Origin: Rhododendron vialii | Taxonomy: Eukaryota; Streptophyta; Magnoliopsida; Ericales; Ericaceae | Length of the DNA: 64,000 nt | Assembly (NCBI RefSeq): GCF_030253575.1 | Contig: NC_080560.1 | Coordinates: 14,236,001-14,300,000 of the forward strand | Reading direction: 5' to 3' | Part shown: positions 10,748 through 22,400 of the stretch, one piece after another | How the letters are laid out: each line of letters opens with the position of its first letter | Numbering within the stretch: the stretch's first letter is position 1 | Translations under genes and position numbers: made by a program | Notes under the pieces: generated by a model | What the model was told of the DNA's origin: nothing | Database searches by the model: none | The model's input: the letters and a program-made list of their open reading frames with translations, nothing else

Positions 10748-12562
10748 TCAAGACAAAACTTCAGCTATTGCCTTCGGGAAATAACCAACTGGCTTAAGAT
10801 GCAGACTTAAACCATCAATCACCTCATATATACTATCTGACTTTGGGTGCGATTTATCAAGTACTGTAAATTCATGAACCTGATCATCCAATTCAATTGA
10901 ACTAGCCCCTGATGGCTTCTGTGTGCCAGTGCTCTTCATGTGCGTCCTTACACTAGCAACACTATTCCAATCGCCTTCTGCTGCATATATACTCGACAAT
11001 ATGGAAAAATGACCAGCATCTGTTGGTTCCAGTTTAATCAGGTGATGAAGCACCTCCTTGGCATATTCCGAAGCGTTATGTATACGGCATGCCACTACAA
11101 GGCTGCCCCAAATAATGGCATTTGGTTCCATTGGCATGCTGCGGACAAGCCTAAATGCTTCCTCAAGACGTCCGCCCCGACCTAAAAGGTCAATCACGCA
11201 ACCATAATGCTCAATTTCTTGAAGTACTCCATATTCTGTCTCCATTGCATTAAAGTAGTGAATACCCTTATCGACAAACCCTGCATGCGTACAAGCACAT
11301 AAAACACCGATGAAGGTCACTCTATCAGGAGCAAACCCTTCTTGTTTCATTCTATAGAAAAGCTCAAGTGCTTTCTCCCCATATCCATGCATAGCCAACC
11401 CTTGAATCATGGAATTCCAAGACACCAAATCTTTGTTTGCCATCCCATTAAAGACGGTCAACGCCCTGTTCAAGCTGCCACATTTTGCATACATATCAAC
11501 GAGAGCATTACCCACATGAGTGCTGCACTTATATCCAGTCCTCTGAATTGAGGCATGAAGTCTTCTACCCAATCCAAGCAAGCCAGACTCTCCACAAGCA
11601 GCTAAAATACTAATGATAACTCCATCATCCAACTTCAATCCCGTCTCCTCCATTTTCTCAAACAAGCTAATTGCATCCTTTGCCAGCCCCTTTTCAGCGT
11701 AGCCACATATTATAGTAGTCCAACAAACTGTATTTTTTGCCGGCATATTATCAAACAAAATCCTCGCCATCTCCATCTCTCCAGCTTTGCAATAACCATA
11801 AATAACGGTCGTCCAAGACACGACATTCCTTCCGGCCATCTTTTTGAACAACTCAAACGCCGTGTCCATCTCTCCCGCCTTTGAATACCCATCTAACATC
11901 GTGTTCCAACTCACCGTATCTCTGTCCGGCATTTCATCAAACAGGCGACGGGCTTCCCTCAACTCATTAGCCTTCACCAACCCGCCAATCATGGTATTCC
12001 ACGACACAATATCTCGCTCCCCCATCACCGTAAACAACTTCCTCGCCTCACCAACACCTAACAAACCACACTTACAGTAACTATCAATCAGCGAATTGGG
12101 CACGACTACATCCGCGAGAAACCCGAGTTTCTCAATCTGGGCATGAATCATTCGCGCGAGTCCCAACTCATTCGTCCCACAACACGCCTTCAACAGAAGA
12201 GCGTAAGTGAAGTTGTCCGGCCACAGCCCGCGGTACTGCATGACGAAGAGCGCACAGAACGCCTCTGAGGGCTGAGAGTTGTGAACGTACGCCCTGATCA
12301 GAGAATTGTACAAGTGCACGTTGGGTTCCTGGACCTGTTTGAAGACGTTCACCGCCAGCGCCATTTGGCGGCAGAGGGAGAAACCGGTGATGAGCTTGGG
12401 GGCGAAGTAAAGGTCGGCCTGGAGGTCGTGTTTGTATATGACTGCTTGGAGCTGTTTCAGTTGTTTCAGGTCTGTGCACTTGAAGATATCTGACAGTTTC
12501 TGTTCCAAGAGTCTTCGTGTGGATACCCATGTCGGGGCTCGAACTGGGATGGGTATCTGCAT
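10748..12562 (-). CDS. PLS-class pentatricopeptide repeat protein, E/E+ subgroup, single exon
   Basis: An intact intronless frame of 604 residues, as usual for plant PPR genes. From residue about 60, tandem P, L and S type repeats can be read, including DIVSWNTMIGG, DTVSWNTMLDG, NVVSWTTVIYG and DLVSWNSMIQG at the start of successive motifs. E and E+ domains follow the repeats (IIWGSLVVACRIHN, then SSIELDDQVHEFTVLDKSHP). There is no DYW deaminase tail. Such proteins bind organellar RNA one repeat per base and recruit editing factors; lack of DYW implies help from a partner deaminase in trans. The sequence most resembles the Arabidopsis At3g29230-type protein, predicted mitochondrial. The N-terminus is basic and serine/threonine-containing, compatible with organelle import. 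The exact RNA target cannot be read by eye. Confidence 0.93.
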   Translation of the reverse strand: MQIPIPVRAPTWVSTRRLLEQKLSDIFKCTDLKQLKQLQAVIYKHDLQADLYFAPKLITGFSLCRQMALAVNVFKQVQEPNVHLYNSLIRAYVHNSQPSEAFCALFVMQYRGLWPDNFTYALLLKACCGTNELGLARMIHAQIEKLGFLADVVVPNSLIDSYCKCGLLGVGEARKLFTVMGERDIVSWNTMIGGLVKANELREARRLFDEMPDRDTVSWNTMLDGYSKAGEMDTAFELFKKMAGRNVVSWTTVIYGYCKAGEMEMARILFDNMPAKNTVCWTTIICGYAEKGLAKDAISLFEKMEETGLKLDDGVIISILAACGESGLLGLGRRLHASIQRTGYKCSTHVGNALVDMYAKCGSLNRALTVFNGMANKDLVSWNSMIQGLAMHGYGEKALELFYRMKQEGFAPDRVTFIGVLCACTHAGFVDKGIHYFNAMETEYGVLQEIEHYGCVIDLLGRGGRLEEAFRLVRSMPMEPNAIIWGSLVVACRIHNASEYAKEVLHHLIKLEPTDAGHFSILSSIYAAEGDWNSVASVRTHMKSTGTQKPSGASSIELDDQVHEFTVLDKSHPKSDSIYEVIDGLSLHLKPVGYFPKAIAEVLS

Positions 12563-13021
12563 CTTCTCTCAGTTAGTATTAAGGGAGGAGGAGAAGTAGT
12601 ATTAGGGCACAGAAAGACGCCATTAGAACGTAAGCTTTAAGTACGACATGGGTGTAAGAAAAGGTACACCGTTGTTTCAGTTGGCATTCGCCACAAGATT
12701 GAGAAAACCAGTGATAAGGTTTGGATCAAAGCAGAAAATTGATGGGGTATGAAAAATCCTTTCTTTTTTTTTTTTCCCTGTGGAATATATTTCTCACTTA
12801 AATTTGCTCAAATAAAAAAAAAGGTTCTATTTTTGTTTTTGTTTTTTCACTTTATTTTTAAAAAATTGAGTTTCGATACTAAGTTTTTACTTTTTGAATT
12901 TCTCTTATCGAGACAAACTGATAATCTAGTAGAAAAATTTAGGTTATGTTTGGAATTTAAGGGGAAAAAAATTTGTTTGGTTGGTTGGAAGAGAAAGAAA
13001 AAAAAAAAGTTTCAAGTTTTA

Positions 13022-16475: not shown

Positions 16476-19400
16476 TCAATCACCTTGTAGGCAGTAAAGC
16501 TGCCGGATATTTCCCGATGCTGTCAAAACATTAAGCAAAAATCAGCAGACGAGGGGGTTAAACCTTGTCATTACTGAATTCTTCAGACAACAAATTCACA
16601 AAAATACATGTCACAAACAAAATTAATTTTACCAAATAGGAGAGACTTGTTTTCTTATGCTTGGATCAGTGACATGGTATAAACTTTGAACAAAAAGCGG
16701 ATTTTGAAATTCACAGTTTTAATCTTCTATGTTGGGATGGGCGGGCAGTTGGTTGGGGGAAGAAGAACGAGGATTTCAATATCACCAACAATTTAAACGA
16801 AAGGTTTAAAGGCCGCAAACGCACAAATGAAATATATTCCATACAGACTTCATTTGGGGCAAAGTCCACTTTGACCCCATGTGGTTATCGCCATGTGCGG
16901 ATACCCTCTCATGGTTCAAAAGTGAGCACACAACCTACCTATGGTTTCAAAAAGGGGGTTCAGTGCATTCAAAAGTGAGCACACAACCTACCTATGGTTT
17001 CAAAAAGGGGGGTTCAGTGCTTATGCCGTTAACGGAAACAACAAAATGTCTAAAATGCCCTTGAATATAACTATACACAGGTTTCACTTCATCTTCCTCA
17101 AACCCAGAAGCCCACCATCGCCTCATCATCATGGCATCCTTGTTTTCTTTTTCTTGTTTTTTCCAGAAGCAACAGGCATCAAGGAGAAGGAACAACAAAA
17201 AAATTCCAAAGCTCTACCTCCACATCGGGGTCAACACCCCCAGAGCCAAGTTGATTGTCCCTGACAAACTCACCCACTACGAATTCCTCAAAAAATGCCG
17301 ACGCCGACGACTATAACAAGGGTAATAATCACTGGGTTTTGAAAGTGGGGTCCAAGATTAGAGCTACAGTTTCGATCGATATGCAGTTGAAGATGTTTGG
17401 GGACCAGAGGCGCATTGATTTTTGTCTCGAACGGGGTATGGGCGTTGAGGTTTTTCAGCGACGAAGAGTACAGGAGGTTCGCCATCTGGATTTGTGGTGA
17501 TGGTAAAGGTTCGCTGGAGACTATGGAGTTCGCCGGTAAAACTGGTGGAAACATGTGGTGGGCGGAAGAAATGGGGAAGATTATGGAGAAGAGAGAGAGT
17601 GGATTTTTGTAGACATTTGAGGGCAAAATGGTCCTAAATCTATATATTTTCACTGCCTCACACGCTTGTAAGGCGCATGTATAACACTTCACGTTAAAAT
17701 GGACGGAAAAGGGTCTATCAGCTCATTTTTACAAACCATGGGGAGGTTATGTGCTCACTTTTGAACCATGAGGGGGGTATCCGCACATGGCGATAACCAC
17801 AGGGGGTCAAAGTGGACTTTGCCCTTTCATTTGCAAATTCTCAAATTCCAAGCTGTTCTTCTCCAAAAGCCCTCTTTCCTAGTTAGAAACATTTAACTAT
17901 AATCTAGGTAAGTTCCCTGATGATATGATTCCATTATACGCAACACAAACAGTTTGAACAAAATGCAAGAAAAGAGAGTAAAAATATTTACCATATAACC
18001 AATCCTTAAAGTATACGTGAAGTGCACTTGATAATTCACGCTTCTTGCTATCTTCAAGCTGTGTTTCCCTCAAAATTTGCTTCATCTCCCCCAAGTTATT
18101 GTGCTGAAACCAAATAACTTTCTCGAATCAGTACGTGGCACACAGAACACTGATTCAGAAACACATGGAATCACTTCCAAAAGGTAAATATGGAAGTCCA
18201 TTGCAAGACACAGAAACGAAATGGCCACACAATGATCAGAATGTAACAGTGCACATACATTTCTATGCTGAGATGCCAAATAAGCATCTGGTAATTGAAA
18301 TGGATTGCCTTTTGTGGACCCAGAGGATTCACCTTCAAACCAGTTTGGAATCTGTAAACCAAAAAGAAGATCCCAACTGTTAAGAAAGACAAGGCACTAG
18401 AAAAAGGTCCAGAACTGAAGCAGTGAAGATGACACATATTAGGTAGCGACTATGTTTGGTGCAGTATACAGATTCAAACAACAAAAATGTGTTTAAGCTG
18501 AAGATTTGCCAATTTAACAAAGGAAAAAAAGGAGTGGATGAATGTGAATAGTAACCACCAATCTCGCACTAGCCAATGCAACATCAATTTATATGACACC
18601 ATCTGCAAATTTTAGTTTGCCAAAAAACATACCAAAAAGGTTGTGAACTGATCTGGATCCAGTCGGGTAGCTGATTCAGCTTGTACATCAGATACTCCGG
18701 TAGGATGAGATAATGAATCGTGTGGATCAACTACTCCCAAAGCCACAGGGTCGTCCCATCTGTTGATAGTTGCCTGAATACCAACTTGGTTCATGTGCTC
18801 CTCCAAATGTGAGTAAAATGTGTTATATGGTGCCACCTGCTCGAAATGTGCCAACAGCGTGAAAATAAATTCCAAGAGCCAATATTCAACATAGAGCATG
18901 AAGATAAGCAGCAGAAAATCTATGATTAAAAGATCAAAAGACACAAGGGTCATGCAAAAATAAGACCATTAACGGGTAAAATAAATAGTCCTACAGTTTC
19001 AAGTAAAGACGCTACTGTAGATTTCTAAAGTTCAATTATAAAGTGTGCAATCAGTTAATCAAGGGCTGAGTACAGCAACTGTTGGCACAATATACAACAA
19101 GATAGAATTTAGGATTTTAAATAGAAACATCCATGCTCAACAGAAAGATGTGATTACAGAAAGAGGACACGTGCGCGCCCACATGTGTGATGCTTGACCT
19201 CTCGACCTCCCTCTATATGTGTGTGAGAATTTTATTAGGCAAAACAAAGAGGAATGAGAAAAAGAAGGCAGTCCTTCCATTATTAGAGGGGGAAAAATCT
19301 CATCAATGCAAAACAACTCCAGTTTCTACAGATTAAACGCTGAAGGCTTGCCTGCATGAAATTTGGAAGATTTAACGGTGACATCATGCTTGATATGCTG

Positions 19401-22400
19401 CAAAAGCGAAGCTGGGGGTCTATGTAGGCCTCTAAAAGTTATTTGATTCGTTCACTGCCAGATGTAATAAACAACTGAAACCCAAGCTAGTGTTTGAGCT
19501 ATATTATGAAAGCTTGTCCCATCAAATTTACCAATTAACTTCATCCTGCCAAGAGTACTGAGGCATGCTAATGTTGCTCGGGGTAGCAACCTGCAACCGA
19601 AAAGATCTAACCAAGGGACATCAGAAGAGATGCTATCATGCTACAATTTCCCCTCTTCTTGATTGCAAAGACAAGTAGCTTGATAAGAAATCCCCATTCA
19701 AAAATTATGTTCTTTGTTAAAAGCTTACCTCTAATTTCCATCCAGAAAGTAAAACTCTGTCTAGGTATGCATTTTTAGCTGTCAGTTGACTCAGTTCAGT
19801 ACAGAAAAGTGAACAGTGAAGCAATCCCATGTAGCAGAACCATTACAATTTCAAGTTGGGAATGTGTCTCAATTCAAGTCATGGTTTACCATCATGATCA
19901 GTTTTGTAGATATGGTCGGGCCTTGTTGCTTACTAAATGGACAATCTCTCCGTCATTTTAGAGTTCAATAGAATTTACAGTGTCAATTGACTTCTAGTTA
20001 ATCTATTGTGCATTGCTATGACAGCTACAAACCTTACAGTTCTGACAGAGTTGTATTAATGCATCACTACCACTTACTTTTTTAAACAGAACAAAGTACT
20101 TCTGTCCTTTTTGACTCTATTCTTGTTCAATTCCTTAGAAGTCCATATTTTGCTGAAAGACTGCAAAAGGTAGACATACTAAGAACAATAAAACACCGAG
20201 GCACCTAGACATGTCTATATTGAGCCAACTATTCTTTTTACAAAAAATATCTAGCAAACCTTCCTGCAAGAGATATTTTATTCAATACTATTACCTCAAT
20301 AACACAGCTAAAACAGGCGCAGACAAGGAACTACAGGGCTCTATTGAATAAATCTCGTCTACCCACACAGCCCCCACAACCTGTTTGGCGTTTTATTAAC
20401 TTACAGCTCTAAACTGGAGTGGCAAGAATTATACAAAGGGCTCATATATCAGATTCAAATTATTTCAAGGTAAAACCATTGAATCAACTCAACCACATTC
20501 AGGTAAATAATTATCAAGCACTACTCATGATATACATGGAGAATACCATAGAGAATCAAAAGTAGTGCTATACAAAATAGAGAACAATGACATGTCACAA
20601 ACCTGCAGCTTATGGTTGTCACCAACAATAAGAGGTCGTTGATTTACCCCCAAGAAAAATACACACTCCCTACAATTAGCGATGCATATCCGTTTTGCTG
20701 CTGCAATGACATGAACCCGCTCACAATGTTCCACTCTTACAGCCTGTAAACAAGATTTAGACAATACACAATAATCATCTGACATGACAAGACAAAATCA
20801 AGAAGTCAACTTGAACAAGTTAATCATCTGGCATCCAAAAATTTCATGTTCTTACAAAATCAAGAAGTTAACTTGAACAAGTTAATTATCTGACATGACA
20901 AGATGCTAAGTATATCATGTACAATATCATCTTCCCAAAGGGATGAAATAGAGTATCAGTCTAAGACAAATTGTTTTCATCAAATGGGGCTAAAAGAATA
21001 TTATGTAATGCAGGGAGTCAAAACAAAAGAAGAACTAAAAGTTTGAAATGCTAGAACCAGGAAGACACATCCAGCCACTTAAAGACTTGGAAATTGGAGT
21101 GGCTTTTGTTGATACACTTGTCATTGAAGCAGTTGGAACAAACATTGTGCTCATACTTTAAAGTAATCTGGACTAGACGATTATTATGATGATCGCAGTC
21201 CTAAAATTGTCATGAGATGTAGAAAACTCCACTTCCAGATGATAACTGTAAAAGGAATATCATCACTTTCTAATAACCACCGATGCTTTAAAAAAGAACT
21301 GCAAATCTAAGAAGATCAGGACACAAAAGCAACACATCTTCATGAGTACCTTGCCAACAGCCCCAAGAACTATAGTTGCATCAGAGCATCCATAGATGGT
21401 GGCATATCTCAAAGGTGCTAAAATGTATATGACAGAATCATGACAATTTCCAACCTGCAAATATATGACACCATGTTAGAAGCAAAGATGGAGCTAAAGA
21501 AACTTCAAACAATCGAAAACATGAAATTCCACTCATACTCACAAAGCATCAGAAAGAGACACAATGAGGAAAAAAATCAACCTAGACTAGCACTGAAGGT
21601 AGAATGGTTACTCTCTTGGCACTGACTTCAGGCGAGGCTGGACTCTTTAGCCTGGTGTAGTTCTAGCATAGAGCTATTTCAAGCCCTACATTTTTATCTT
21701 GAAGACTTAACATGGGTCCTAGCCCAACCCTAGACTACTGGACTTTATCCACATAACAAGATTAATAGGAAAGCCAAATTAGTTCGTAGGCTTGCATCAG
21801 AGTAGCCAACCTGTTAAGCCAATGAGTTTGCATTTGACGCCCCATTTCTGATCATGATTTTTACAATTGAACTAATTATCTGCCAATCAACAATCAAGTA
21901 TCTTCTTAACTTTTCTAGCTAGTCAATAAACCAGCTACAACAATTGTCTAAACTAGTGTGCTATTGAAGACACCACCACAAATTAGTTTATAAGCACAAG
22001 TCAAAGTGGAGTAATACTGACCTATGAAGCATGGATACTCTATTTTGGCCTCCGTATCGCGTACCGTACGCGTATTGGATACGGATACGCTCGGAAGCGT
22101 ATCCGATACGTTTTCTAGAGTATCCTGTTTTTTATTTTATTTTTTGGTATTCGGATATGCTCCTGATACGTTTGGATACGTTTCGGATACGCGCGGGGGT
22201 AAATATGTTATTTCTTAAAATATATGGGTTAAACTGCAATTAGGGCTAGATAATTCTCATCCGTATCGATCAGGAAAAAAAAAACCGAAAGAAAAAGACA
22301 GGAAGAAAGAAGTGATTCCTCTCTGTGGTCTACTGGTCTCTATTCTCTCTCTCTCGGTCTCGCCTGTAAGTCTCTCTCTCCTCTCTCATCTCTCTCTCGC

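Follow-up and report, generated by a model that had tools for sequence, protein, structure and literature searches.

The 64-kb stretch of Rhododendron vialii DNA analysed here (the window) contains a TBCC-domain gene whose probable last coding intron is occupied by a 968-bp insertion (16857-17824; C4:14252857-14253824) carrying a piece of a second gene, DEM/VID27. The locus thus raises the question of what the insertion is, how it came by the gene piece and whether it matters to either gene. The reading we favor, with a probability of roughly 0.87, is that it is a non-autonomous Pack-MULE, whose ancestor copied a DEM/VID27 piece, probably that of the gene on C11, and a copy of which entered the last TBCCD1 intron, where it is most likely a near-neutral passenger. 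The features of the locus are collected in Table 1.

Table 1. Features of the host intron and the inserted element (window coordinates)
Feature	Position	Strand	Basis
TBCC-domain exon, open frame	20528-20797	-	PF07986, E 6.7e-12
Probable penultimate coding exon of TBCCD1	17992-18103	-	Read from sequence
Intron holding the element, probably the last coding one of TBCCD1; GT-AG, 1472 bp	16520-17991	-	Read from sequence
Probable last coding exon of TBCCD1, ASGNIRQLYCLQGD plus stop	16476-16519	-	Read from sequence
Presumed target sequence of the TBCCD1 insertion, expected as one copy at an empty site: TTCATTTG			
Left target-site duplication, CTTCATTTG	16848-16856	.	8/9 against right copy
Left terminal inverted repeat, 97 nt	16857-16953	+	92% alike with right arm (97/98 nt)
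53-bp tandem unit, duplicates inner part of left terminal inverted repeat	16915-17020	+	Identical 44-nt copies at a spacing of 53; 98% over 53 columns
Second copy of tandem unit and MULE left subterminal sequence, common to the family	16968-17079	+	Element positions 112-223 match relatives
Stretch without traced origin; no second copy found in the genome	17080-17208	+	Query 17070-17215 matches itself alone
Putatively captured piece of DEM/VID27 (within DUF7135), in antisense relative to host	17209-17479	+	87.8% over 271 nt to C11:35957661-35957929
MULE right subterminal sequence	17480-17726	+	Element positions 625-705 and 672-968 in relatives; no VID27 DNA found there
Right terminal inverted repeat, 98 nt	17727-17824	-	Paired with left arm
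Right target-site duplication, TTTCATTTG	17825-17833	.	8/9 against left copy

The TBCC domain is the part of the host gene that was found by search. We take the gene to be TBCCD1, and exons 17992-18103 and 16476-16519 to be its last ones, from the original prediction and the end of the plant protein; both assignments are probable as judged from the sequence. The intron between these exons begins with GT, ends with AG and separates a frame ending in WLY from the short terminal frame and its stop codon. By arithmetic, it would measure 495 bp without the element and one copy of the duplication. The GT-AG intron, the minus-strand TBCC-domain gene and the plus-strand DEM piece fit the claim that the element lies in the last TBCCD1 intron with its gene piece antisense to the host. 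Elsewhere in the window, a 606-codon open frame (10748-12568, minus strand) resembles a pentatricopeptide-repeat gene by eye.

In pairwise alignment, the two arms of the terminal inverted repeats (TIRs) are 92% alike, with a complementarity of 98% over the outer 50 nt and 88% over the following 50 nt. The 22-nt terminus, with up to three mismatches allowed, occurs twice in the 64 kb, both times as an end of the element, and not once in 100 shuffles. The flanking target duplication differs at a single place, and agreement at eight of nine positions arises among random 9-mers from the window with a frequency of 0.0003. A target duplication of 9 bp is the size made by MULEs. Among the nine interior frames scanned against Pfam (the longer frames, both strands), none matched a transposase model and six matched no family at E 0.01. 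An Rfam scan of 16500-18200 gave nothing reaching the gathering score, and a plasmid collection searched with the element gave no match. The original prediction had described TIRs of 80-100 bp, a near-perfect 9-bp duplication and the lack of a transposase, all of which agree with these observations.

The ends of the element are widespread in the genome (533 Mb, 13 contigs), where the 20-nt terminus with at most one mismatch is present in 143 + 145 = 288 copies, against none for a backward control. Relatives were fetched from the best genome matches and then examined for paired ends, which were found in 7 of 23, 16 of 20 and, among longer stretches, 7 of 13 loci; the first 23 include five DUF7135 loci that are not TIR loci (L011 and L014-L017), and the set of 20 includes the C6 VID27 gene (L058). 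The prediction would have been undone by TIRs absent from other loci with 9-bp duplications; instead, 25 of the 30 relatives with paired ends, a count that leaves aside unpaired loci, have duplications of 8/9 or 9/9, and the remaining five of 6/9 or below (L020, 4/9; L031, 5/9; L040, 6/9; L059 and L069, less than 6/9). Shorter relatives of 602-641 bp share the same TIRs and have duplications of 8/9 or 9/9 in 15 of 16 cases; their interiors gave no match to the C11 DEM gene, the sole host gene compared. One family member, L021 372-1640 (C6:34313771-34315039), has a nested insertion with ends GGCTCTGTTTGGAAC and GTTCCAAACAAAGCC, apparently a miniature element as judged by eye.

Larger family members encode MuDR-type transposase domains. 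The clearest carrier, L059, matches PF03108 (DBD_Tnp_Mut, E 1e-12) and, in two pieces, the MULE transposase family PF10551 between family ends 6180 bp apart; it has no recognizable target duplication. In L060 (7239 bp, 8/9 duplication), a SWIM finger (E 7e-8) was found in a frame whose start is nearly that of the L059 frame, and L069 gave a MULE match below threshold only. The length of the target duplication, the ends and a relative with transposase domains together identify the window element as a MULE. Another relative with a 9/9 duplication, L030 384-1500 (C6:31492183-31493299), is a second Pack-MULE and contains a leucine-rich-repeat gene fragment, whose best source match (C2:21753136-21753439, 91%) belongs to a gene with a 765-residue frame full of such repeats. 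At least two host genes are thus represented by fragments in this family.

As to the gene piece itself, the original prediction had placed three ordered VID27-like blocks in 17080-17650. Pfam does find DUF7135 (PF23581) in three ordered plus-strand pieces (E 5e-10, 2e-15 and 2e-5, the third scoring 25 bits against a curated cut-off of 27), which cover only positions 29-140 of the 166-position profile. The other outcome that would have undone the prediction, a lack of any VID27 match, therefore did not occur. DNA comparison, however, narrows the VID27-derived DNA to the fragment listed in Table 1. Homology to VID27 ends at 17479 and MULE family sequence begins at about 17480; since the sequence from there on is shared with MULE relatives that yielded no VID27 DNA, the end of the third block belongs to the element, and the idea that this block is VID27 throughout was rejected.

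The source gene that a genome search was expected to reveal has a good candidate on C11, 88% identical to the fragment, with an uninterrupted 550-residue frame that holds both DUF7135 and most of the VID27 C-terminal domain (profile positions 41-253 of 356). The genome has at least two VID27 genes, on C11 and C6, and the C-terminal domain was found only at these. Because DUF7135 is partial in the window and the C-terminal domain is confined to those two genes, what the window holds is a VID27/DEM fragment, not a gene. Relative to the C11 gene, it has acquired one-base insertions in an A run (17290-17295) and a T run (17419-17423), so that, with truncation at both ends, the DEM domain can not be encoded in one frame. 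No MULE ends were found in 7 kb around the C11 gene (L035), and the 271-nt gene match was the only one there at E 1e-6 or better. The GC content is 0.48 in the fragment versus 0.34 in the remaining intron. A DUF7135 stretch is also carried by a different repeat family (L014, L015 and L016, at C5:40678337, C8:15705083 and C1:42757158), a 451-bp piece of which has eight full-length matches, query included, at 91-100%; this stretch is closer to the C6 DEM gene (75% DNA identity, 161 query bases).

A second copy of the MULE-DEM combination lies on C5 (C5:15295796-15296087). It consists of a partial MULE subterminal region and a partial DEM piece, 90 and 92% identical to the window copy, and no MULE end was found at it. 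The copy is flanked by hAT-like ends AGGGGTGACAAATGGG (18 nt, 89%; L071 4395-5584 = C5:15295394-15296583), which have no clear target duplication, the best being 6/8 by eye with ends unequal in length. Five further places carry the sequence left of the insert, at 86-92% identity over nearly its whole length. On C13, a different interior is flanked by this left stretch (89% over 407 columns) and by sequence from the right of the insert (98% over 91 columns), and no right end was seen there. What was inserted at C5 already combined MULE and DEM DNA. Sequence comparison suggests that it is probably a second, serial capture by another, hAT-like type of element; a nested insertion whose MULE ends were later lost is a possible alternative.

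Divergence from the C11 gene bears on the history of the fragment. The two differ at 31 places, a few of which adjoin the first insertion and vary with how the sequences are aligned, and 18 of the 31 are synonymous (26% expected, P 0.0002); among differences assigned to the window lineage, nine of 19 are (P 0.04). This skew speaks against simple drift from C11 and is only partly explained. The synonymous excess means that some of the differences accumulated while the sequence belonged to a selected gene, either the C11 gene after capture or a donor differing from the present C11 gene. Since the window copy is frameshifted twice, we do not take its skew as constraint. Within the 150-bp overlap with the C5 copy, all five window-only changes are synonymous, three of them at CpG. 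Over the whole fragment, CpG decay as a sign of silencing was not significant (7 of 46 CpG versus 8 of 98 other C/G sites, P 0.24). In the same overlap, the C5 and window copies have eight differences from C11 in common, so both probably go back to a single capture, barring a third donor gene. Six of these eight shared sites change the amino acid, as is expected without coding constraint.

Such a donor, a DEM gene additional to the two found and since lost or absent from the assembly, would account for both the synonymous excess and the eight shared differences. Only two VID27 genes were found, however, itself a lower bound, and the predominance of non-synonymous changes among the shared sites fits drift after capture better than descent from a working donor; we consider this origin unlikely. 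The probability falls further for a history with no capture at all, in which a piece of a DEM pseudogene entered a MULE-derived miniature element by itself. The roughly 130 bp of untraced origin ahead of the DEM piece, for which a search that passes over simple repeats and high-frequency words returned one genome match, itself, could be read in its favor. But neither a poly(A) tail nor a direct repeat was seen bounding 17209-17479, the right junction leads directly into MULE family sequence, and the family member L030 carries a different host fragment, so that we hold this nested origin to be very unlikely. A chance resemblance of both the inverted repeats and the protein matches has a vanishing probability given the E-values, the shuffles and the 288 termini against none in the control; for the inverted repeats, the latter two rule chance out.

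The remaining alternatives concern effect rather than origin. In the predicted fold of the intron RNA, 92 of 98 end nucleotides pair, and the fragment shares runs of 39, 32 and 20 identical nt with the DEM gene; the predicted pairing and these runs make an RNA effect possible, be it antisense or small-RNA action on DEM. The antisense or read-through RNA against both TBCCD1 and the source VID27 gene that the original prediction proposed is likewise no more than a possibility. In its fuller form, the element would act as an RNA regulator, with the TBCCD1 pre-mRNA forming a TIR stem of about 98 bp and a DEM-antisense loop, and small RNAs lowering DEM mRNA or silencing TBCCD1. MULE ends and interiors in rice do bear 24-nt small RNAs, according to excerpts of PMC4858842. 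Yet the DEM piece would lie in the loop, outside the stem, any long intronic TIR pair would fold likewise, and identity to the DEM gene is just 88% across the piece. Such regulation seems to us distinctly improbable. Still more doubtful is the combined scenario of serial capture from a MULE to a hAT-like element on C5 together with a window copy that makes the TBCCD1 pre-mRNA a source of antisense RNA against DEM, an essential cell-division gene. Were small RNAs found, an intron of TBCCD1 would link two unrelated cell-biology genes.

The Pack-MULE passenger reading would proceed as follows. An ancestral element would have copied roughly 270 bp from the DUF7135 region of DEM/VID27, probably from the C11 gene; the homology is observed, and the copying may have occurred during repair or template switching, as in the models outlined in the consulted part of PMC8277862. 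The piece would then have drifted. Given the shared ends, a MuDR-type transposase supplied in trans by larger relatives most likely mobilized the element. The window copy would have inserted into the last TBCCD1 intron in the orientation that places its DEM piece antisense to TBCCD1, and since the element would be spliced out along with the intron, its effect is most likely none or slight. The value of the locus is that one genome contains a Pack-MULE together with its family, the source gene to which its piece was traced, a likely source of transposase and a second captured gene. Should the C5 copy represent a genuine second capture, gene pieces would pass between transposon superfamilies, which would bear on the spread of chimeric gene parts.

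None of the papers searched pairs a Pack-MULE with VID27, TBCCD1, DEFECTIVE EMBRYO AND MERISTEMS or Rhododendron. The window element is nevertheless of a known kind, an assignment as a Pack-MULE that its sequence supports well. It has the same ends as its shorter MULE relatives of 602-641 bp in this genome. Like the Pack-MULEs described in the excerpts of PMC4858842 and PMC8903248, it combines long TIRs and a 9-bp duplication with no transposase found, and carries a partial, disrupted piece of a host gene from another chromosome that is GC-richer than its surroundings. Capture of GC-rich sequence by MULEs is reported in the consulted part of PMC4858842, and the GC contents given above are in line with it. 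What sets the element apart from known Pack-MULEs is the gene that it captured, DEM/VID27, and its position in an intron of a TBCC-domain gene. The C5 copy, between hAT-like ends, resembles instead the Pack-TYPE elements Pack-hAT and Pack-CACTA as presented in the excerpts of PMC8903248, and differs from them in that its insert was already a chimera of MULE and DEM DNA.
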